From contig CANFME010000002.1 in the NCBI GenBank assembly GCA_947448305.1, positions 1 to 64,000 on the forward strand: a DNA stretch of 64,000 nt, written 5' to 3'. The position numbers were made by a program, and so were the translations under genes. The notes below the pieces were generated by a model. That model had not been told where the DNA came from. It saw nothing but the letters and a program-made list of their open reading frames with translations, and ran no database searches. Below are positions 2,498-13,101 of the stretch, piece after piece. Source of the stretch: Burkholderiaceae bacterium (lineage in GTDB: Bacteria; Pseudomonadota; Gammaproteobacteria; Burkholderiales; Burkholderiaceae). Positions within the stretch are counted from its first letter, which is position 1. Each line of letters opens with the position of its first letter.

Positions 2498-3124
2498 ATG
2501 AGTACAAGTAACAACGCTGCAAACGATTTAGATCAATTATTAGATAAATTACGTATCCGCGAAGTGGTCGAAAACTGGGTCGTGTTTCGTGACTCAGGTA
2601 AATGGGAAGAGTTCAAATCCGTTTGGCATAGCGACGGTGTAATGATGGCTACTTGGTTCCAAGGTCCGTTTGAAGAGTTTATTAAAGTTTCGATTGAAGG
2701 TTGGAATAAAGGCGTTAGTATTTTGCATTTCTTGGGTGGCAATTCCGTTGAACTCTCTGCATCAGGAACACGGGCTATATCGCAAACAAAAATGACGATT
2801 ACCCAACGTGGTCTTGTTGATGGCTTTGAATGTGACGTTGTTTGTACAGGAAGATTTTATGACTTCATGGAAAAACGTGAAGGCCGTTGGGGCGTGGTAC
2901 TACGCCAACCCATTTATGAAAAAGATCGTATTAACCCACTAGATCCGAGTGCCAACTTTAAACTCGACCAAGCATTACTCCAAAGCTTTCCAGAAGGCTA
3001 TCGTCACTTGGCTTATATTCAAACCAAACTTGGTTTTAAAGTAAAAGAAGATATGCCCCAATTAAAGGGTGCTGCTGTTGAAGGACTCTATCAACGTGGA
3101 CGTGACTGGTTAAACCATGCTTAA
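2498..3124 (+). CDS. SnoaL-like (NTF2-fold) protein
   Basis: A 208-residue cytoplasmic protein. The N-terminal ~140 residues resemble the SnoaL_4/NTF2-like fold: helix LRIREVVENWVVFRDSGKWEEFKSVW, then a beta-rich half with a hydrophobic pocket. Members include ring-hydroxylating dioxygenase beta-like and steroid isomerase-like proteins, but many have no known reaction. A ~60-residue C-terminal extension is atypical. The gene sits between two Bug receptor genes, 9 bases after the first and overlapping the next by 8 bases, which points to a small operon for processing an imported compound. The reaction is unknown. Confidence 0.75.
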   Translation: MSTSNNAANDLDQLLDKLRIREVVENWVVFRDSGKWEEFKSVWHSDGVMMATWFQGPFEEFIKVSIEGWNKGVSILHFLGGNSVELSASGTRAISQTKMTITQRGLVDGFECDVVCTGRFYDFMEKREGRWGVVLRQPIYEKDRINPLDPSANFKLDQALLQSFPEGYRHLAYIQTKLGFKVKEDMPQLKGAAVEGLYQRGRDWLNHA

Positions 3125-4100
3125 GCCAAAAGTAAATCTTGTTTTAACGGCATTGTTGACAACTTTAGGGCTTTTTATAGCTCCAATGACCTCTGCACAA
3201 AACGTTTCTGACAAACCACTTCGTATCATCGTTCCTCAGCCTCCAGGTGGTGGTTTTGATTTTGTTGGTCGCGTTCTAGCCGATAAGATGGCCCCTCTCA
3301 TTGGTCAATCCATTATGGTGGAGAACAAGACTGGTGCAGGGACTGTGGTTGGCACTGATTATGTAGCAAAACTGCCTGCAGACGGATCAACTGCTTTAGT
3401 AGGCTCGATTTCTAATATCGTCATGAACCCATGGCTTTATAAAAATCTACCTTACGATCCGATTAAGGATTTTGAGCCAGTCGGATTTGCCATTAGCTAT
3501 AGCTATACCCTTATTGGTCGTAAGGGTCTGCCGTTTAATACGCTACAAGGCTTAATCCAATATGCTAAAGAGAATCCAGGTAAGCTCACTTACGCGTCTG
3601 GTGGTAACGGCACAGGACAACACGTCTTACCTGCGGCACTGTGGAATAAGGCAGGTGTAGATTTAGTACACGTTCCTTACCGAGGTGCTCAACCTGCCTA
3701 TACTGATTTATTAGGCGGTCGAGTTGACTTGTTTTTTGACTTAGCACCAACGGCAAGACCGCATATTGAAGCGGGTAGCGTAGTAACGTTAGCAACTTCA
3801 GGGGCTAAACGTAATCCTAATCTACCCAACGTGCCAACCATTATTGAAACAGGGGTTGCTAACGTTGAACTAGAATCTTGGTTCGGTTTGTTTTTGCCGG
3901 CTAAAACTTCACCTGCAGCGATCAATGCATGGCGCAGTGCCATGACGAAAGCCGCAAATCAAGCTGAGGTCAAAGAGCGTTTTGAAAAAGCAGGTGGACA
4001 CCCCATTTCACCTACTGCTGAAGAAGTCAAAGCCATCATTGCAAAAGACTATGTGCGCTGGAAAAACCTCATCGCTGATGCAAATGTAAAGGCTGACTAA
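3117..4100 (+). CDS. Bug-family TTT substrate-binding protein (2)
   Basis: Periplasmic TctC/Bug receptor, 327 residues, with a signal peptide ending in MTSAQ. Family hallmarks are PLRIIVPQPPGGGFDFVGR, VENKTGAGTVVG and HVPYRGAQPAYTDLLGG. The gene begins inside the last codons of the SnoaL-like gene (8-base overlap), which is typical of translational coupling. No TctA or TctB membrane genes accompany it. It probably delivers its carboxylate ligand to a shared permease encoded elsewhere. The presence of Phe-Asp rather than a second small residue after the GGG loop may reflect ligand specificity, but the ligand cannot be named. Confidence 0.9.
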   Translation: MLKPKVNLVLTALLTTLGLFIAPMTSAQNVSDKPLRIIVPQPPGGGFDFVGRVLADKMAPLIGQSIMVENKTGAGTVVGTDYVAKLPADGSTALVGSISNIVMNPWLYKNLPYDPIKDFEPVGFAISYSYTLIGRKGLPFNTLQGLIQYAKENPGKLTYASGGNGTGQHVLPAALWNKAGVDLVHVPYRGAQPAYTDLLGGRVDLFFDLAPTARPHIEAGSVVTLATSGAKRNPNLPNVPTIIETGVANVELESWFGLFLPAKTSPAAINAWRSAMTKAANQAEVKERFEKAGGHPISPTAEEVKAIIAKDYVRWKNLIADANVKAD

Positions 4101-4150
4101 GGTAACTAAAGTACCTAAGGTAGATCAATTTTTTCATCTAAGTAGTCAAT

Positions 4151-4192
4151 AGAAGCAGATAAGATATAAGATTTTCTCTGCTTTTATTTTTT
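4151..4192 (+). terminator. Probable Rho-independent terminator after Bug gene 2
   Basis: The arms AGAAGCAGA (4151-4159) and TCTGCTTTT (4177-4185) pair over nine positions with one G-U pair. The right arm runs into a T-rich tract up to 4192. It lies 50 bases after the Bug gene stop and before the CoA-transferase promoter region. The 17-base loop is large, so efficiency is uncertain. Confidence 0.45.
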
Positions 4193-4284
4193 ATAGCTCA
4201 TTCCCCACATTTAGCTTACTAGTATTGAGGATTAGTTTGCCCTAGTTTTGTTAAAATCAACTTATCACTTATCAAGGCAAAATC

Positions 4285-5505
4285 ATGTCAAAACCATTAC
4301 TCCCGTACCACGATATTCGCGTTGTTGAATTCACCCATATGGTGATGGGTCCCACCTGCGGTATGGTGCTCGCAGACTTAGGTGCAGATGTGATTAAGGT
4401 TGAGCCTTTAGAGGGTGATAAAACTCGTGAACTATTAGGTTCTGGCGCAGGATTTTTTCCGATGTTTAACCGCAATAAAAAAAGTATTTCGGTAAATTTA
4501 AAAACCCCAGAAGGCAAGAAGGTCGTTGAAGACCTGATCGCCACAGCAGATGTCGTGATTGAAAACTTCAAAACGGGCACAATGAAAAAGCTGGGACTTG
4601 ATTACGAGACCTTATCCAAAAAACATCCACGCCTGATTTATGTCACGAATAAAGGATTTTTACCAGGACCTTACGATCATCGCACCGCACTTGATGAAGT
4701 CGTACAAATGATGGGCGGCCTAGCCTATATGACTGGCCCGAAAGGAATGCCATTGCGCGCTGGTACCTCTGTAAATGACATGATGGGTGGTATTTTTGGG
4801 GCAATTGGTGTGATGGCAGCACTTCGTAATCGGGATCGTACCGGTCTTGGTGAAGAGATTCAGACAGGTTTATTTGAAAACAATGTTTTCTTAGTTGGTC
4901 AACACATGTTGCAATATGCTGTGACCGGCAAAGCAGCAGACCCGATGCCAAATCGCATTTCTTCATGGGGAATTTACGATATTTTTGAGGTAAAAAATCA
5001 AGAACAGATTTTCTTAGGTGTCGTTACAGATACTCAATGGGAAATCTTTTGCCGCGTATTTGGTTTAACTGATCTTCAGGCGGATACAAGGTATGCCACT
5101 AATAATTTAAGAGTAACGAACCGAGAAACATTAATCCCTGAATTAAGAGCTAGATTTGTGGATATTGCAGCAGTGGACATTGCCAAAATCTTTGAAGATA
5201 ACGGCTTACCCTACGCACCAATAACTAAACCTCAAGAGCTATTTAATGACCCTCATCTCTTAGCAACAGGTGGTATCGCTAAGATTGAGATTCCGAATGG
5301 TGCAAACCCAGGATCTTTTACTCACACACCTTTATTACCATTAACCATTGGTGGTCAACGCTTAGGAATTCGATTAGACCCTCCTTACCAGGGAGCGCAT
5401 ACAAAAGAGATTTTGTCTGAACTGGGTTTATCACAAGCCACCATTGATGAATTGATTGCTAAAGGGATCATGGTGGCAAGCGGTGACACCCAAAGTAAAA
5501 AATAA
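4285..5505 (+). CDS. CaiB/BaiF class III CoA-transferase
   Basis: Cytoplasmic enzyme of 406 residues that moves CoA between carboxylic acids (formyl-CoA transferase, succinyl-CoA:acid transferase and alpha-methylacyl-CoA racemase relatives). It shows the family start VVEFTHMVMGPTCGMVLADLGADVIKVE, the FFPMFNRNKKSISVNLK segment, FKTGTMKKLGLDY, and the dimer region around VNDMMGGIFGAIGVMAAL that carries the expected catalytic Asp. Length is normal. It stands alone after a terminator-like hairpin, but with Bug and SnoaL-like genes upstream it probably activates an imported acid. Donor and acceptor are unknown. Confidence 0.88.
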   Translation: MSKPLLPYHDIRVVEFTHMVMGPTCGMVLADLGADVIKVEPLEGDKTRELLGSGAGFFPMFNRNKKSISVNLKTPEGKKVVEDLIATADVVIENFKTGTMKKLGLDYETLSKKHPRLIYVTNKGFLPGPYDHRTALDEVVQMMGGLAYMTGPKGMPLRAGTSVNDMMGGIFGAIGVMAALRNRDRTGLGEEIQTGLFENNVFLVGQHMLQYAVTGKAADPMPNRISSWGIYDIFEVKNQEQIFLGVVTDTQWEIFCRVFGLTDLQADTRYATNNLRVTNRETLIPELRARFVDIAAVDIAKIFEDNGLPYAPITKPQELFNDPHLLATGGIAKIEIPNGANPGSFTHTPLLPLTIGGQRLGIRLDPPYQGAHTKEILSELGLSQATIDELIAKGIMVASGDTQSKK

Positions 5506-5561
5506 CTATCTTTTCCAAACATTTTAAGGATTCAATCACCTACGAGGGCAAAATTTAATCC

Positions 5562-6503
5562 TTATAACGCCTTTAAATGATAATTAATTCGATTCATTAA
5601 ATCATTAAAACTAGGCTGGCCTTTGTAATAAAGGCTAGCCACTTTTTGATATTCTGACTCAAACAGTTTTCTATCTTCTAACTCAGTTAGAAGAAAAGCA
5701 GCATTTTCAGTAATATTTAAATTATCAGCTTTAGGAAATCGCTCTTTTTTTCTGGTTCTATAACTGTCAGTTTTAATAAACTCTAAGACTGGAGAGTAGC
5801 CTAAAAGGCAATACACATCATAATAATGTCTTAAGAAATTCTTAGGAAATCCCTTCCCTGCTTTGAATTGTCGATACTTTGTAGATATAGTTTGCAACTT
5901 TTCAACAAATGTATATTCAGGCAAATAACATAAAATATTTTTTGCTCGGTTGTCATTAATATCTTTTACATACTTAACCGCATGATCGTACGCCCAAGAA
6001 GAAATATCTAATGCCTGATTTGGTGCAGTATCATCAAAGCCTAACTCCAACAATAAGCCATCTTTTAAACCATTCAACGATTGTGTTGTAGATTGGTAAT
6101 TTAAGCGAATCCCTCCGCTACGCATTTTTTCTTTATCATCAAAAGAATGATCACGACCTACATCTCGTAAGCCAGAAATTTTTAAATTTCTAGCTATCCA
6201 CTCATAGTAATCAGAACGTGATTGTATGTGTACTTTTTTATTTTGATTTTTCCCAGTCTTTACGTCTAGGCATTTTGGAGGATCAATTCGGATATCGATG
6301 TCTTCCGAAAATCGATGGATTAGACCAAAACCTTTAGATAGAGAAGTGCCGCCTTTTAATTCAAAGGTAAAGCCCTGCTCCTGCAATCCCCACAAGCAAT
6401 GCATGATCCAATAATCTTTTTCAACCAAAGTAGGACTAATCGCCATATCGTCAGATACAGCAGCAATCAAATCTTTAAAGTTTTTATGATGATGCAACAG
6501 CAA
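5562..6503 (-). CDS. abiEii: AbiEii-type nucleotidyltransferase toxin
   Basis: Toxin of a type IV abortive-infection pair, 313 residues, DUF1814 nucleotidyltransferase family. Diagnostic motifs are VEKDYW (27-32), the nucleotide-binding GGTSLSKGF (51-59) and the metal-binding RFSEDIDI (64-71). Related AbiEii and MenT enzymes inhibit growth by nucleotide transfer, in MenT3 onto tRNA acceptor ends. No in-frame ATG fits: the frame opens after a TGA only two codons before TTG at 6503, so a TTG start is likely, with GAG about 8 bases upstream. It follows the antitoxin gene by 13 bases, a normal coupled order. It is low in GC and placed between metabolic genes, consistent with horizontal acquisition. 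Confidence 0.9.
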   Translation of the reverse strand: MLLHHHKNFKDLIAAVSDDMAISPTLVEKDYWIMHCLWGLQEQGFTFELKGGTSLSKGFGLIHRFSEDIDIRIDPPKCLDVKTGKNQNKKVHIQSRSDYYEWIARNLKISGLRDVGRDHSFDDKEKMRSGGIRLNYQSTTQSLNGLKDGLLLELGFDDTAPNQALDISSWAYDHAVKYVKDINDNRAKNILCYLPEYTFVEKLQTISTKYRQFKAGKGFPKNFLRHYYDVYCLLGYSPVLEFIKTDSYRTRKKERFPKADNLNITENAAFLLTELEDRKLFESEYQKVASLYYKGQPSFNDLMNRINYHLKAL

Positions 6504-6516
6504 TATTCATTCTCAT

Positions 6517-7146
6517 TCAAGAATATCTTATCCAAGATAAAAGCATTTTTTTCGTTTTTCCTAAACCATAAAGTAGGACATATTTATCTAGCTTTGCAGA
6601 ATCAAAATTGGATAACATCTTTTCTACATTTACCAAAACATCATCCTTATTCTCTGGAAGAGAATCAAGATTGTTTAATAGGTCAATCAATAAGAACTCT
6701 TTATCTAGCTTTTTAGGAAATCTAGGTTTCATTTTAAAGTCAAAATTTCTATTACCTAATTGAAAGACACCATGGCGCTTATGGTTATAAACCCAAGTCT
6801 TGTTCTGTAGTTGCGTTGTTCCGATACCTAATGAGTTATAACTGTTAGGCGAAAAAATCAAGAAATCATCTTCTTTTAAAAAAGCTCGAACTAATTCATC
6901 TTCTTTTGGGGGTAATCTGCCAAATGTTGATGATTTTGGTGCGTAATAAAGTCCTTGTGATAACTTTTCTAAATCACCAGCATCTACCAATTGCTTTAAA
7001 TGACGGTCCACTGCATTAGAACTACTTAACAAATCCTCTCTTCTATAGACTTTGCCTTTCTTTAAATGCGAACGAAGTACTCCCAATGCAGTATCGGGCA
7101 ATTCATAAACTATTTTTGAGGAAGGCTTGATGAAGATTTTTTGCAT
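6517..7146 (-). CDS. abiEi: AbiEi-like antitoxin (DUF6088, winged-helix)
   Basis: Antitoxin and autorepressor partner of the adjacent AbiEii toxin, 209 residues. The N-terminal ~75 residues form a winged helix (LGVLRSHLKKGKVYRREDLL, then NAVDRHLKQLVDAGDLEKLSQGLYY), the DNA-binding part in this family. The C-terminal part is the AbiEi/DUF6088 domain. In type IV systems the antitoxin does not bind the toxin directly but counteracts it and represses the operon by binding inverted repeats in the promoter; a long hairpin sequence of that kind lies 44 bases upstream. The ATG lacks a clear ribosome-binding site. The assignment is firm because of the partner. Confidence 0.85.
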   Translation of the reverse strand: MQKIFIKPSSKIVYELPDTALGVLRSHLKKGKVYRREDLLSSSNAVDRHLKQLVDAGDLEKLSQGLYYAPKSSTFGRLPPKEDELVRAFLKEDDFLIFSPNSYNSLGIGTTQLQNKTWVYNHKRHGVFQLGNRNFDFKMKPRFPKKLDKEFLLIDLLNNLDSLPENKDDVLVNVEKMLSNFDSAKLDKYVLLYGLGKTKKMLLSWIRYS

Positions 7147-7169
7147 GATTATTTATTTAAATTTCATGC

Positions 7170-7197
7170 ATATTAACACGAATAACTTACATAAGAA
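7170..7197 (-). promoter_or_regulatory. Candidate promoter for abiEi-abiEii
   Basis: On the reverse strand TTCTTA (7192-7197) and TAATAT (7170-7175) are spaced by 16 bases, 24 bases before the abiEi ATG. The -35-like hexamer lies inside the left arm of the inverted repeat at 7190-7223, so a protein bound there would block the promoter. Inferred from sequence only. Confidence 0.4.
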
Positions 7198-7223
7198 GTT
7201 TAATTAGCATTAAGCTTCTTATG
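7190..7223. promoter_or_regulatory. Inverted repeat, probable AbiEi operator
   Basis: Arms CATAAGAAGTTTAAT (7190-7204) and ATTAAGCTTCTTATG (7209-7223) are complementary at 14 of 15 positions around a 4-base centre; the one exception is a T/G pair. AbiEi antitoxins are known to repress their own operon through promoter inverted repeats. The repeat also lies 45 bases beyond the stop of the amidohydrolase gene and could act as a hairpin in that transcript, but no T tract follows it on the reverse strand, so the operator reading is preferred. Confidence 0.55.
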
Positions 7224-7267
7224 CCGTTAATCTTTCTATTTTGAATACTTAGACGAAAAAAATAGTT

Positions 7268-8164
7268 TCAAAAGTCATAAAGCATTGCTGGTGTATCCAC
7301 CAAAACTTGTTGTAGAAGTTCAGGCGTATTTAATACTTCACCAAGCAAGTTAAGTAAATGACCATCATTAGGTAATTTTTCTTGTTCAAAATAATTAATG
7401 TGCGGCCAATCAGTTCCCCAAACTAATTGCTTTGGGTTGGCATCAACGAGTGCTTGCATAAAGGGTAATGCATCCACAAAACCTTTTGAGGCTGTGCCAA
7501 TTCGGTCTGCCCCAGAAATCTTACAAAAAGCTTGACCGGTTTTCAGTAAGTCACACAAAAACAAAAAGCCAGGATCAGTAATCCCTCTGGTCGTTTCCAT
7601 GCGTCCCATATGATCTACGATCAAAGGCAATTGTAAGGCGGCTAATCGGGGCATCAGGCGTGGTAAATCTGGTGCATAAATCCAAATTTGCGCATGCCAG
7701 CCACGACTTCGCATGCGAGGTGCTAAAGCTTCTAAAGTTTCAAGGCCAATACCGTTTCGATACATCGCGTGACCACCAACTTGTAATAAGTTGACCCGTA
7801 CCCCTCTGACGCCTAAGGCGTGCATTTGATCTAATTCCGCGTCCGTAATATTAGGATCTGGCACCACTACGCCTCGCAGACGATCCGGGTAAGCTTTAAG
7901 AGCGTCTAAGGTAGAGCCATTATTTGTGCCGCAAACGCTAGCGGTGACAACTACGCCTCTAGTTAAGCCGAGGTGATCTAAGTGCGCCACAAATTGCTCA
8001 GGTAAAAACTCTGCTGCAGGGGTATAACTTCGATCATCTGCTAAAGGATATTTAGAGTATGGGCCAAACGTATGAACGTGACTATCGCAGGCAAGTTTCG
8101 GTATTTGTAAAGTTACAGGTTGATATTCAGATAGTGGGATGGCTGGTAAGCATACTTTAGTCAT
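7268..8164 (-). CDS. PDC-hydrolase-like amidohydrolase family protein
   Basis: A 298-residue TIM-barrel metal hydrolase of the amidohydrolase-2 group, closest in style to 2-pyrone-4,6-dicarboxylate lactonase (LigI) and related lactonases or decarboxylases. Visible features are ACDSHVHTFGP near the N-terminus (metal-binding HxH), LPLIVDHMGRM (His of the barrel) and LVWGTDWPHIN near the C-terminus (catalytic Asp). It is the last gene of the nine-gene reverse-strand cluster, only 3 bases after a Bug receptor gene. It probably opens a lactone or cleaves a ring-derived acid in the pathway. The true substrate is not known. Confidence 0.82.
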   Translation of the reverse strand: MTKVCLPAIPLSEYQPVTLQIPKLACDSHVHTFGPYSKYPLADDRSYTPAAEFLPEQFVAHLDHLGLTRGVVVTASVCGTNNGSTLDALKAYPDRLRGVVVPDPNITDAELDQMHALGVRGVRVNLLQVGGHAMYRNGIGLETLEALAPRMRSRGWHAQIWIYAPDLPRLMPRLAALQLPLIVDHMGRMETTRGITDPGFLFLCDLLKTGQAFCKISGADRIGTASKGFVDALPFMQALVDANPKQLVWGTDWPHINYFEQEKLPNDGHLLNLLGEVLNTPELLQQVLVDTPAMLYDF

Positions 8165-8167
8165 TTT

Positions 8168-9187
8168 TTATTCCGCTTTAATTTTTCCAGAAAGGGCAAG
8201 TTTTTTTGAATTAACTGATTCTTTAGCAATCATTTCTTGCCAAGCTGCAGGGGTTGAATACAGCGGCGTACTACCAATTGATTTCATTCTTTTTAAGAAA
8301 TCTTCTTCTTTGGTCACTTGACCAATCGCTGCATTAAGTTTTTGAATTACTTCAGGAGGTGTGCCACTTGGCGCTAGGATGCCAGTGGTGGTTCCCATCT
8401 CTAAATCAATTTGCGTTTGCTCAACCAAGGTTGGTACCTCTGGAAAGTTGCCATCACGAGTTCTAGCAAGTACTGCGAGAACTTTTAATTGACCACCGTC
8501 GATAAAAGGCTTTGAGCTGGTAATTTGATCTACTACAAAGTCTAACTGTCCCCCAATCAAATCGGTTAATGCAGGAGCAGAACCTTTATAGGGAATTACA
8601 TTAAATTGTAATTTTGCTGCCTCTTCGATATTTAGAATCGACATATGATTAGATGTACCAGGTCCAGAATGTCCAACACTGACTTTGCCCGGAGACTTCG
8701 TTGCCATGGCGATCAAATCTTTAGCAGAATTAAATCGTGTATCGTTTTTTCGGACCACAATCATGAGCGGTGAAAAAGCCACGGCACTAATCGGCGCAAA
8801 GTTTTCTAACTGATAGGTCGTCTTGATTAAATGTGGCAGAGTACCAATGGTATTGGTGGTTGCCACAATTAAGGTATAACCGTCCGCAGGTGCTTTTGCA
8901 ACATAGCTACTTGCAATGGCTCCGCCGGCCCCAGCGCGGTTCTCAACGACTACTGACTGACCTAAAATTTTTGATAAGCCAGGAGCTAAAGTGCGGCCAA
9001 TAATATCTAAATTACCACCTGGTGCAAAAGGAATCTCTAGGTTAATACTTTTATTCGGAAAGGTATTACTAGTTGTTTGTGCAAAGCCTAGACTTGTGAT
9101 GAGACAAGTACCTAAAACAGAAACCAAAAGGCTTTTTTTGTTGAAATTGAAATAGAAATACTTCTGCAGTACCTGACTGATTTGCAT
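8168..9187 (-). CDS. Bug-family TTT substrate-binding protein (3)
   Basis: Periplasmic TctC/Bug receptor of 339 residues. A basic N-terminus and hydrophobic segment end near GFAQ. Hallmarks include FPNKSINLEIPFAPGGNLD, VENRAGAGGAIASSYVAKAPADGYTL and VIPYKGSAPALTDLIGGQ. The start is supported by AAGGAG seven bases upstream of ATG. It is followed after 3 bases by the amidohydrolase gene and preceded by the aldolase gene (83-base gap), so it belongs to the same catabolic operon and probably binds its substrate or an analogue. No cognate membrane subunits are nearby. Confidence 0.9.
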   Translation of the reverse strand: MQISQVLQKYFYFNFNKKSLLVSVLGTCLITSLGFAQTTSNTFPNKSINLEIPFAPGGNLDIIGRTLAPGLSKILGQSVVVENRAGAGGAIASSYVAKAPADGYTLIVATTNTIGTLPHLIKTTYQLENFAPISAVAFSPLMIVVRKNDTRFNSAKDLIAMATKSPGKVSVGHSGPGTSNHMSILNIEEAAKLQFNVIPYKGSAPALTDLIGGQLDFVVDQITSSKPFIDGGQLKVLAVLARTRDGNFPEVPTLVEQTQIDLEMGTTTGILAPSGTPPEVIQKLNAAIGQVTKEEDFLKRMKSIGSTPLYSTPAAWQEMIAKESVNSKKLALSGKIKAE

Positions 9188-9270
9188 ACGATCTCCTTAA
9201 TTATTTTTTCACCATCACGTTAAAACTGAAAAGTTCACTAAAAGCATGAACTTGTCGCAGATACTCACGA

Positions 9271-10065
9271 CTACTCTCTAAAACTAGAATCCATGCGATC
9301 TAAGAAACGCAGCATTCCTGGCCACTCCATCACACCGTAGGGTCGACGAGTTTTTGGTTGATAGTTCATATAGGTTTCATCTAGTACTTGCTGTGATACT
9401 TTTTGTAATGGTGAATTACAAGCCATAGCAGCTAACTGCGCTTTACAAGATAGTTCTAAGCGGTGCATCCAATTAAACGCTTCACCAACTGTAGCGCCGC
9501 AAGTGAGCAAACCATGATTGCGTAAAATTAAGGCCTCAGAATCGCCTAAATCTTTGACTAAGCTTTCTTGCTCATCAAGGTTCAGCACTACACCCATATA
9601 GTCGTGATAGCTAATTTTCAAAAAACGCATTGAAGTTTGATTTAAAGGCAGTAGACCCATCTCTAATGAGGAAATGGCCATACCGGGCCAACTGTGGGTA
9701 TGAATGACGCAATTAACTTCAGGACGCGCTTTATGAATCGCACTATGCAAAATATATCCAGGAATATTAATCCCGTATTGAAGATCACCAAAATCTGGTT
9801 TTGTGAGGATCTTTCCTTCGTGATCAATTTTATATAAAGAAGAGGCTGTCATTTCTTCATACATCAAGCCATAGGCATTAGTTAAAAAAGCATCTTCCTC
9901 ACCCGGCACACGCAGAGTAATATGGTTCGCCATCATGTCAGACATGCCGTAATGCGCAACGAGCCGGTAACAGGCTGCGAGATTAACGCGTGCTTCCCAC
10001 TCCTGAGGGCTGACCTCATCTTTGAGAGAGCGCACATATAATTTTCCATTAGTACTTGTTGTCAT
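9271..10065 (-). CDS. Class II aldolase/adducin family protein
   Basis: A 264-residue cytoplasmic protein with the class II aldolase/adducin fold. Zinc-site features are visible: VIHTHSWPGMA (HxH) and ALILRNHGLLTCGATVGEAF (third His). Such enzymes cleave or decarboxylate hydroxy-acid or sugar-phosphate substrates; the adducin-like subgroup to which this looks closest includes 3-hydroxy-2-methylpyridine-4,5-dicarboxylate decarboxylase and related enzymes. The ATG at 10065 is preferred because AGGAG lies 7 bases upstream; the longer open frame would overlap the upstream gene. It sits between the acyl-CoA synthetase and Bug genes of the operon. Confidence 0.82.
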   Translation of the reverse strand: MTTSTNGKLYVRSLKDEVSPQEWEARVNLAACYRLVAHYGMSDMMANHITLRVPGEEDAFLTNAYGLMYEEMTASSLYKIDHEGKILTKPDFGDLQYGINIPGYILHSAIHKARPEVNCVIHTHSWPGMAISSLEMGLLPLNQTSMRFLKISYHDYMGVVLNLDEQESLVKDLGDSEALILRNHGLLTCGATVGEAFNWMHRLELSCKAQLAAMACNSPLQKVSQQVLDETYMNYQPKTRRPYGVMEWPGMLRFLDRMDSSFRE

Positions 10066-10114
10066 TGATATCTCCTTTTTTACTAATTTTTTAAATTCTA
10101 TAACGAATACGATA

Positions 10115-12229
10115 CTACTTTTCAAAAACAGCAACAGCGTCGACAGCAGTAACGCCACTGCCTAGTGCGTGCATTAAGATGGGATTAACCTCTGCCTCAA
10201 GAAGAGTATGTCGATAACTTTGGGCCATTTTTACAAAACCTTGTACGACCTTTACTAAAGCAGGTATATCTAGGGGCTCAATCCCCCTAAAACCATTCAT
10301 GAGTGGCCAAATCGTCAGTGATTGCAACATCTGCAGAACCACTTCTTCATTGATTCCCACTTGTGCATCACTCGGAAGCAAAAATACGGTTGAGTCATTA
10401 AAAACCTCAGCCGTAATACCGCCTGAACCAATGATCAATACTAATCCTAGAATATCTCTCTTCACCCCGATGAACAGTTCTAAATCTTTAGGCAACATCT
10501 CTTGGATTAAAAATTCTTCAATCCGAATCCCTGTCTTAGCTAATACATTCTTACGCATTTTCTCTAGCTCAGCACCCACTTGGATACCGCGTAAATTCAT
10601 GACAACTCCACCCACATCGGTTTTATGAGTAATCTCATCACTCAATATTTTTAGGACTAAGGGCTTTTTTACTTCCGCTTCAAAGATGGTGGCTTGTAAG
10701 CTCGTAGTAATCACTTTCTCTCGCGCCATGGGCATGCCAAACTTGGCAAATAATGCTTTGGCGTCATGTTCATTCAGCGTTCCTTTGAACTCCCCTAGTG
10801 CTTGTGTTTCTGGATCTAAAGTAAATGACTCTGCTGGTAAAGTGGTTAAAGTATTTGCTTGCTCCCACTGCGAAATTTGCCATAAAGCTTTTAGGCCGCG
10901 AGCACAGCCTTCTGGGGCAGCAAAAGCTGGAATACCTTGTCGAATAAAAGTCGAAACAAGTTGTGGTGCATAGGGTGAGATATAAGCAAAGATGGGTTTG
11001 TTTGAGTCTCCCATACCTTCGCGTATCGCACCAGCCATCAAGTCAGGCATTGCTAAAGCAGAAGAACCAACTACTACTACGATTGCATCATAATCATCTG
11101 AGGCAAGCAGAGTTGCAATAATTTTCTTCAGCAAATCTGGCTTTAATCCAGCGAGGGTAACATCAATTGGGTTATTACCTAAATCAATTGGTAAGTTTTC
11201 ATCGAGCGTACGTAAAGTCTGAGCGGTCTCTTCTTTAGGCAGGGGCATTTCAAAATTCATTAAGCCCAAGTTATCTGCAATTAAAGTTGCTGCGCCTCCG
11301 CTAGATGTGAGGATAGCGATACGGTTATTTTTTAGTCGTTTGCCATTTTGGATTGAGACCGGAAAGTCAATCAAATCAGAAAAATAATCAGCTCGTAATA
11401 CTTGGTTTTGCTTAAAGAATTGATTGTAGACACGGTCTTCCCCCGCCATCGCACCAGTATGGGAAGCTGCTGAACGCGCACCGCTCTCTGATTTACCAAT
11501 TTTATAAACAATCAGGGTCTTACCAGCAAGTCTTGCCTTTTTTGCTGCTAACTCAAATTTAGCAGGATGACGAACACCCTCTAAATACAAAAGAATAATT
11601 TTTGTCGCAGCGTCTTCACTGAGATAGTCGACCATATCAGCCACATCTAAGTCAGCTTCATTACTCGTTGCAACTAATTTAGATAAACCTAAACCGCTAC
11701 CTGCTGCACGGGACAAAATAGAGCCAACAATACCGCCACTTTGCGAAACGATGGCCACTGAACCTGCATGCAAGTCCCCAATCTCAAGGGCAGAGCTAGC
11801 AGAAAGAGCAATGTTATCGGTCAAGTTCATGAGCCCAATCGTATTAGGTCCTAAGAGGCGCATATTACCTTTGGCTGCCAACAATTGTTGTTGCAGAAGT
11901 TGACCTTCCTCACCTAACTCAGCAAACCCACTCGCTAAAACGATCGCTGCTTTACAGCCCTTATCGGCTAATTCTTTGACGGCATTTATACTATTTTTTG
12001 CACCTAATAAAATAATTGCCATATCTGGCACATCGGGTATCGAAGCAATGTCTGGGTAACAAGTTTTACCTAACATTTCTTGATAACGTGGATTCACAAA
12101 ATAAATGGCTCCACTAAAATTTCTCTTAATTAAATAAGCACCAGGCAGACCTGATGTTTTCGTAGGGTCTGCTGAAGCACCAATAATAGCAACTGAATTG
12201 GGTTTAAATAAATAGTCCAAAGAGTTCAA
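10115..12229 (-). CDS. ADP-forming acyl-CoA synthetase (acetate--CoA ligase family)
   Basis: A 704-residue single-chain ADP/NDP-forming acyl-CoA synthetase. The order is a CoA-binding Rossmann domain (residues ~5-130, SVAIIGASADPTKTSGLPG), a succinyl-CoA ligase-like middle domain with the phosphorylated His region SHTGAMAGEDRVYNQ, a second ligase domain, and a C-terminal ATP-grasp domain (from ~480, ENPVVLK-like VKKPLVLKI, KTDVGGVVMNL). It activates an organic acid to its CoA thioester, or works in reverse to conserve energy. The start is a TTG with AAGGA eight bases upstream. It lies between hydratase and aldolase genes and is a likely entry step of the pathway. Confidence 0.88.
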   Translation of the reverse strand: MNSLDYLFKPNSVAIIGASADPTKTSGLPGAYLIKRNFSGAIYFVNPRYQEMLGKTCYPDIASIPDVPDMAIILLGAKNSINAVKELADKGCKAAIVLASGFAELGEEGQLLQQQLLAAKGNMRLLGPNTIGLMNLTDNIALSASSALEIGDLHAGSVAIVSQSGGIVGSILSRAAGSGLGLSKLVATSNEADLDVADMVDYLSEDAATKIILLYLEGVRHPAKFELAAKKARLAGKTLIVYKIGKSESGARSAASHTGAMAGEDRVYNQFFKQNQVLRADYFSDLIDFPVSIQNGKRLKNNRIAILTSSGGAATLIADNLGLMNFEMPLPKEETAQTLRTLDENLPIDLGNNPIDVTLAGLKPDLLKKIIATLLASDDYDAIVVVVGSSALAMPDLMAGAIREGMGDSNKPIFAYISPYAPQLVSTFIRQGIPAFAAPEGCARGLKALWQISQWEQANTLTTLPAESFTLDPETQALGEFKGTLNEHDAKALFAKFGMPMAREKVITTSLQATIFEAEVKKPLVLKILSDEITHKTDVGGVVMNLRGIQVGAELEKMRKNVLAKTGIRIEEFLIQEMLPKDLELFIGVKRDILGLVLIIGSGGITAEVFNDSTVFLLPSDAQVGINEEVVLQMLQSLTIWPLMNGFRGIEPLDIPALVKVVQGFVKMAQSYRHTLLEAEVNPILMHALGSGVTAVDAVAVFEK

Positions 12230-12279
12230 TGTGTAATCCTTTATGAATGAGGCAATGATGATGAGCCTTTTACTACGTG

Positions 12280-13101
12280 TTATTTTTTCGCTACTGGAGT
12301 ACGCTCTAAAAATGCGGCTACTGCATCATGGTGATCTTGCGTTGTATAACAAAGGCCTTGCGCGAGACTACCCTGGCTGAAAATTTGTTCCGCTTGCGAT
12401 TCATAAGTGCGGTTGATAATACTTTTCGTGAGCGCAACGGCAGCTTCAGAACCAACACTTAATTCTTTTGCCCAACTGATTGCTTGCGCTAATAAATCTT
12501 GATGAGGTACTAGGCGATCAGCAATCCCTAAATCTAAAGCTTCTGTAGCAGGTACTTTTTTCCCTGTAAATAACAGTTCTTTTGCTTTCGCTAAACTGAC
12601 ACGTCTAGGTAGAAAATACATACCACCACCGTCGGGTATGATGCCTCGCAGAATATAAGACCAAGCAAATAAGGCCGAATCAGCGGCCATCACAAAGTCA
12701 CAAGAAAGAGCCAAATCAGCGCCGAGTCCCATTGCTGGACCATTCACAGCTGCGATGGTTGGTTTAGGCATATTCATCAGCGCACTCACAGTTGAGCTAA
12801 CATATTGCTGGCGTGTCCAACCGTTAAAACCCATTTCACCAACAGGTGCATTCATTCTCTGCTTCATGCCATTAATATCCCCACCAGCGCAAAAACCTTT
12901 ACCAGCACCAGTAACAACGAGTGCACGGACATTGCGGTCATACGTGATTTGATTTAACAAATCAAGATACTGGGCACGCATTGCATCCGAAAATGCGTTC
13001 ATCTTTTCTGGTCGATTCAGGGTGAGAATGCCGATATTGTCCTCAACCTTAAATAAGACTTCGGGTTGGGTAGCTTCTTGAGACTGCAATTTCACTTCCA
13101 T
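12280..13101 (-). CDS. Enoyl-CoA hydratase/isomerase family protein
   Basis: A 273-residue crotonase-fold enzyme. Seen: GILTLNRPEKMNAFSDAM near the N-terminus, the oxyanion-hole segment GAGKGFCAGGDINGMKQ, and KPTIAAVNGPAMGLGADLALSCDFVMA. The later LRGIIPDGGGMYFLPRRV fits a hydratase-like active site region. It probably hydrates the double bond made by the acyl-CoA dehydrogenase of the same operon. The start has AGGAA upstream. Exact substrate and whether it is a hydratase, isomerase or hydrolase cannot be decided. Confidence 0.87.
   Translation of the reverse strand: MEVKLQSQEATQPEVLFKVEDNIGILTLNRPEKMNAFSDAMRAQYLDLLNQITYDRNVRALVVTGAGKGFCAGGDINGMKQRMNAPVGEMGFNGWTRQQYVSSTVSALMNMPKPTIAAVNGPAMGLGADLALSCDFVMAADSALFAWSYILRGIIPDGGGMYFLPRRVSLAKAKELLFTGKKVPATEALDLGIADRLVPHQDLLAQAISWAKELSVGSEAAVALTKSIINRTYESQAEQIFSQGSLAQGLCYTTQDHHDAVAAFLERTPVAKK

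Follow-up and report, generated by a model that had tools for sequence, protein, structure and literature searches.

Two adjacent genes in the window, the 64-kb stretch of DNA analysed here, are by their sequence an AbiE-type (type IV) toxin-antitoxin system, a known kind of system, and a conserved 29-bp dyad beside their promoter very probably serves the antitoxin as the site for repressing its own operon. This corrects the reading of the locus: the conserved site of regulation is not the more conspicuous hairpin. The host is a freshwater bacterium. The close relatives of its genome are Polynucleobacter, and our literature search found nothing on abortive infection in that genus.

The abiE gene pair

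The operon consists of two genes:

5562-6503, minus strand: abiEii, toxin, an AbiEii/DUF1814 nucleotidyltransferase of 313 aa with a TTG start (Pfam, PADLOC, motifs)
6517-7146, minus strand: abiEi, antitoxin, a DUF6088-type winged-helix protein of 209 aa with an ATG start (Pfam, PADLOC)

The antitoxin gene comes first and the toxin gene second, with a gap of 13 nt, and this order is kept in relatives. The earlier note had recognized an AbiE pair here, which is borne out: both open reading frames are present at these positions, and Pfam and PADLOC agree on them. AbiEii matches PF08843 (E 5e-26, 92.6 bits, cut-off 22.5) and the PADLOC AbiEii model (1e-68); the motifs VEKDYW, GGTSLSKGF and RFSEDIDI that had been ascribed to it are all present, and motif I/II, GG-x15-DID, can be read from the sequence. 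AbiEi had been described as a winged-helix DUF6088 protein, in agreement with its score of 32.2 bits against PF19570 (DUF6088; cut-off 25), its match to the PADLOC AbiEi model (2e-84) and an N-terminal part that is modelled as a winged helix (structure models of low confidence, mean pLDDT 63). Its score of 16 bits with AbiEi_4 (PF13338) is below the cut-off of 25, and the protein was placed under DUF6088 instead. Scores of 70-187 bits are reached by many other members of DUF6088, so that AbiEi represents a divergent branch of the family. The best PDB fold match of the antitoxin model, a weak one (E 0.09), is the Streptococcus agalactiae AbiEi structure 6y8q, and the toxin fold search returned weak nucleotidyltransferase matches only. 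At the sequence level, neither the proteins nor their profiles returned meaningful matches in the PDB, and the NCBIfam search assigned no family.

The TTG proposed as the toxin start holds as well, because a TGA two codons upstream closes the frame and the position is conserved. In fact, the start position is identical in 11 Polynucleobacter members (window included), while the codon itself varies, being TTG in 2 (window included), GTG in 5 and ATG in 4. Since relatives use ATG, GTG or TTG, a weak abiEii start is frequent rather than an obligatory or fixed design.

A conserved dyad at the promoter

An antitoxin promoter containing inverted repeats, as sought for an AbiE system, was found directly at the abiEi start, where the dyad adjoins an extended -10:

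7142-7170, minus strand: dyad TGCATGA-N15-TCATGCA, 29 bp, conserved, the proposed AbiEi operator
7164-7170, minus strand: left half-site TGCATGA, found as TGCATG[AG] upstream of 42/45 subfamily members
7142-7148, minus strand: right half-site TCATGCA, overlapping the abiEi start codon
7170-7178, minus strand: extended -10, TGTTAATAT, with one base common to the left half-site
7192-7197, minus strand: weak -35-like hexamer TTCTTA, 3/6 matches, with a 16-nt spacer to the extended -10

All Polynucleobacter members have identical dyad arms and spacing, with proteins 62-74% identical to those of the window, and the DNA further upstream of the dyad is mostly unalignable; the extended -10 (TGnTAnnAT) occurs in nearly all of them. 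When 186 Polynucleobacter genomes were scanned for the spaced dyad, matches were obtained in 27 genomes, with none for the reversed control. Every examined locus among the matches with an AT-rich spacer has abiEi directly downstream, and the five translated matches without abiEi all lie inside long open reading frames, that is, in coding sequence.

The dyad extends well beyond the genus. TGCATG[AG] is present in 42 of the 45 upstream regions of the subfamily, against 0.72 in shuffles (maximum 4), and the exact TGCA-N21-TGCA in 24 of the 45 (shuffles, 0.06); L036 has no left half-site, and L199 and L200 have near variants. Relatives with antitoxins of about 47-62% identity, whether chromosomal, plasmid-borne or on viral contigs, keep the left half-site; among their replicons are plasmids of Chlamydiota (L193) and Bacteroidota (L204). 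Many distant relatives, some of them with predicted start codons, retain the 29-bp outer length. Many beta- and gammaproteobacterial relatives have a degenerate right arm, and therefore one strong half-site may suffice there.

Some minor observations belong to this survey. Four IMG/VR contigs that are catalogued as viral (L066, L067, L068 and L069) carry this antitoxin subfamily with an identical half-site; used by itself to scan viral contigs, the half-site pattern was of no help, as chance matches were too numerous. A Polynucleobacter-type abiE was found on L022 (CALPOM020000170.1), titled Thermoflexus hugenholtzii, a title that is probably wrong because a contig of matching content groups with Polynucleobacter in the genome set. 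The plasmids L205, L224 and L225 have DUF6088 genes with no adjacent AbiEii listed in a plasmid gene table that is itself incomplete, and these are possibly solitary regulators. Moreover, the left half of the proposed operator can often be read as a mini-ORF of 3-4 codons, ATG AAA NNN NAA TGA (L003, L028-L035 and others).

The position of the dyad relative to the promoter follows two arrangements. In Polynucleobacter and several beta- and gammaproteobacterial relatives it is placed after the -10. Most plasmid-borne relatives have it 58-74 nt ahead of the start codon; there its right arm, TTGCAA, also serves as the -35, and in 12 of 14 cases a -10 follows at 16-18 nt (1.1 in shuffles). It is conceivable that the dyad works in the mRNA leader and controls translation, as a start-codon hairpin or as a mini-ORF, given that in Polynucleobacter the start codon falls within the right arm, that the arms can pair as RNA (-7.4 kcal/mol) and that many members can be read as a mini-ORF. 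This is, nevertheless, very improbable: in the second arrangement the dyad coincides with the -35 or precedes it and would not be transcribed, the left arm in the window lies around the predicted start site, so that most of it would be absent from the RNA, L018, L060 and L062 have a broken mini-ORF, and the co-variation with the recognition helix described below would have no explanation. A right arm that serves as the -35 box where the dyad is further upstream points to a DNA operator rather than an RNA element, and a dyad that keeps its form while shifting relative to the promoter is what is expected of a protein-binding site.

Recognition helices, half-sites and known systems

To relate the half-sites to the protein, about 100 DUF6088 proteins were sorted by recognition helix; the half-sites of the other classes first came to light in a few loci and were then put to the test in an additional sample of PF19570. 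TGCATG[AG] occurs in 34 of 38 members with the helix DRHLxxL (DR class; Fisher p 2e-19), TGTCAGA in 27 of 30 with DQALSRL (LSR class; p 1e-16) and TGTCCGA in all 8 with DKTLQRM (LQR class; p 6e-11), values that are uncorrected for shared ancestry and overstate independence because family members share it. The remaining helix classes have almost none of these half-sites. The DR-class members without the exact left half-site are L036, L199, L200 and L225, two of which have near variants. Different dyads of comparable length, TGTCAGAAA-N10-TTTCTGACA and TGTCCGAAA...TTTCGGACA, belong to DUF6088 proteins from outside this branch. The same genome contains a second DUF6088 gene (G000:C55:119-460; L019, L245), of LQR type with the helix DKTLQRL; its open frame comprises only 142 aa, and it is preceded by TGTCCGA, as its class predicts.

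Because the half-site can be predicted from the helix class, it is simplest to assume that the antitoxin reads the dyad with its own winged helix. Binding by a host regulator other than AbiEi would be the alternative, and one that we consider scarcely credible, for the dyad is kept across phyla and on mobile elements in linkage with abiEi and co-varies with the recognition helix of the antitoxin. Beyond this locus, DUF6088 antitoxins probably follow a simple helix code of TGnnnGA half-sites within a dyad of 28-30 bp (DRHLxxL with TGCATGA, DQALSRL with TGTCAGA, DKTLQRM with TGTCCGA), which would prevent cross-regulation within a cell and explain the insulation of paralogous AbiE systems. Together, the conserved operator and the helix correspondence provide testable binding sites for dozens of systems, and the operator offers a means of recognizing functional abiE loci from sequence.

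We consider it highly likely that a pair of AbiEi molecules on the dyad represses the promoter of the operon, and that AbiEi also restrains AbiEii. The genes, the dyad, its conservation, its overlap with the promoter and its co-variation with the helix were observed; binding, repression and antitoxicity are inferred. By analogy with S. agalactiae AbiEi, the winged-helix domains of two protomers would bind the inverted half-sites TGCATGA and TCATGCA, and bound AbiEi would block RNA polymerase at the adjoining extended -10. AbiEii is expected to act as a nucleotidyltransferase that AbiEi would hold in check; it may be toxic and may take part in phage defence. Related toxins are reported to modify tRNA acceptor stems (PMC10435456, PMC7725324).

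Autorepression by AbiEi has been proven experimentally in S. agalactiae, where the protein binds to inverted repeats within its promoter (PMC3985639, PMC7319586). The present locus resembles this system (COG5340 AbiEi with DUF1814 AbiEii) in the bicistronic antitoxin-toxin order, the winged-helix antitoxin, the polymerase-beta-type toxin motifs with x15 spacing and the inverted half-sites that overlap the promoter. Unlike S. agalactiae AbiE, its antitoxin is of the DUF6088 type, with no detectable sequence match to the solved AbiEi, and its proposed operator spans 29 bp with TGCATGA half-sites, whereas that of S. agalactiae spans 49 bp with TGTTGCTTTTA as half-site (TGTTGCTTTTA-N27-TAAAAGCAACA; PMC3985639). 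Mycobacterium tuberculosis MenAT / Rv2827c-Rv2826c has the toxin superfamily in common, and Rv2827c likewise binds inverted repeats in its own promoter (PMC7319586, PMC10435456); unlike here, these are two pairs of 23-bp repeats bound with negative cooperativity, and the antitoxin belongs to a different family. The DUF6088 family is spread over several phyla, and a survey passage (PMC12654330) gives 13 predicted AbiEii/DUF6088 pairs with gene pairing as here; that passage covers the pairing only, with no operator or mechanism. No characterized DUF6088-type AbiEi antitoxin was found in our literature search, and both the operator and the helix code appear to be new.

The 15-base inverted repeat and its surroundings

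The earlier note had attributed AbiEi autorepression to a hairpin over the -35 of the promoter:

7190-7204 and 7209-7223 (arms), no strand assigned: 15-base inverted repeat, 14/15 paired, loop of 4, lineage-specific

This repeat exists and is beyond chance. It is the sole one of such quality in the 64 kb, five first-order Markov copies contained none, and the number expected at the local GC content of 23% is about 0.002 per 121 bp. It does overlap the -35-like TTCTTA (7192-7197), as had been claimed, but that hexamer is weak. The repeat is absent upstream of abiEi in Polynucleobacter relatives with 62-74% identical antitoxins, five of which carry a 21-bp palindrome of unrelated sequence in about that position, and several of which lack any significant repeat there. 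It is also absent from G043, although the neighbours on both sides are the same and 88-97% identical. Its non-random nature and its overlap with the -35 region of the putative promoter would suit an AbiEi operator. Even so, this role is very unlikely, considering its absence from relatives, the syntenic G043 included, its single occurrence in its own genome even at 3 mismatches, the lack of any half-site in common with related promoters and a 4-nt spacing that differs from known AbiEi sites. Thus, the idea of autorepression stands, and autorepression through the dyad is well supported by inference, whereas the hairpin as operator, absent in relatives and unlike the S. agalactiae scheme, does not stand. 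The single copy also ruled out a dispersed genomic element.

Our preferred guess, a tentative one, is that the repeat forms a hairpin at the 3′ end of the catabolic genes upstream, which would end or stabilize their transcript and insulate abiE; this concerns the 15-base repeat only and is compatible with the dyad as operator. The repeat lies between the stop of an amidohydrolase gene (7268-8164) and abiEi on the same strand, it forms a strong RNA hairpin (-14.9 kcal/mol, z -5.4), and the palindrome that five relatives have there is a dispersed, mostly intergenic repeat. On the other hand, it has no U-tract and is therefore no canonical intrinsic terminator, the terminator listing shows none there, and it is not kept in G043. 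The palindrome, AGCGTTACTT-T-AAGTAACGCT, is dispersed in Polynucleobacter genomes (G012, G007, G887, G919 and G005) and was found upstream of abiEi in L003, L004, L021, L039 and L051. As a module border it was ruled out, because in G012 it proved simply intergenic over the 32 kb that were read.

The search for a precise empty insertion site by means of the amidohydrolase gene found none, and the nearest homologues (62-63% identity) differ in gene order. The G043 locus (L219; G043:C25:92000-104000), compared with 2498-13101 of the window, has abiE genes that are 73-77% identical within flanks of 88-97% identity, which suggests allele replacement or fast divergence. Between 1437 and 16530 the window contains at least five similar periplasmic solute-receptor-like genes among catabolic genes, with starts near 1437, 3117, 8168, 13131 and 15514.
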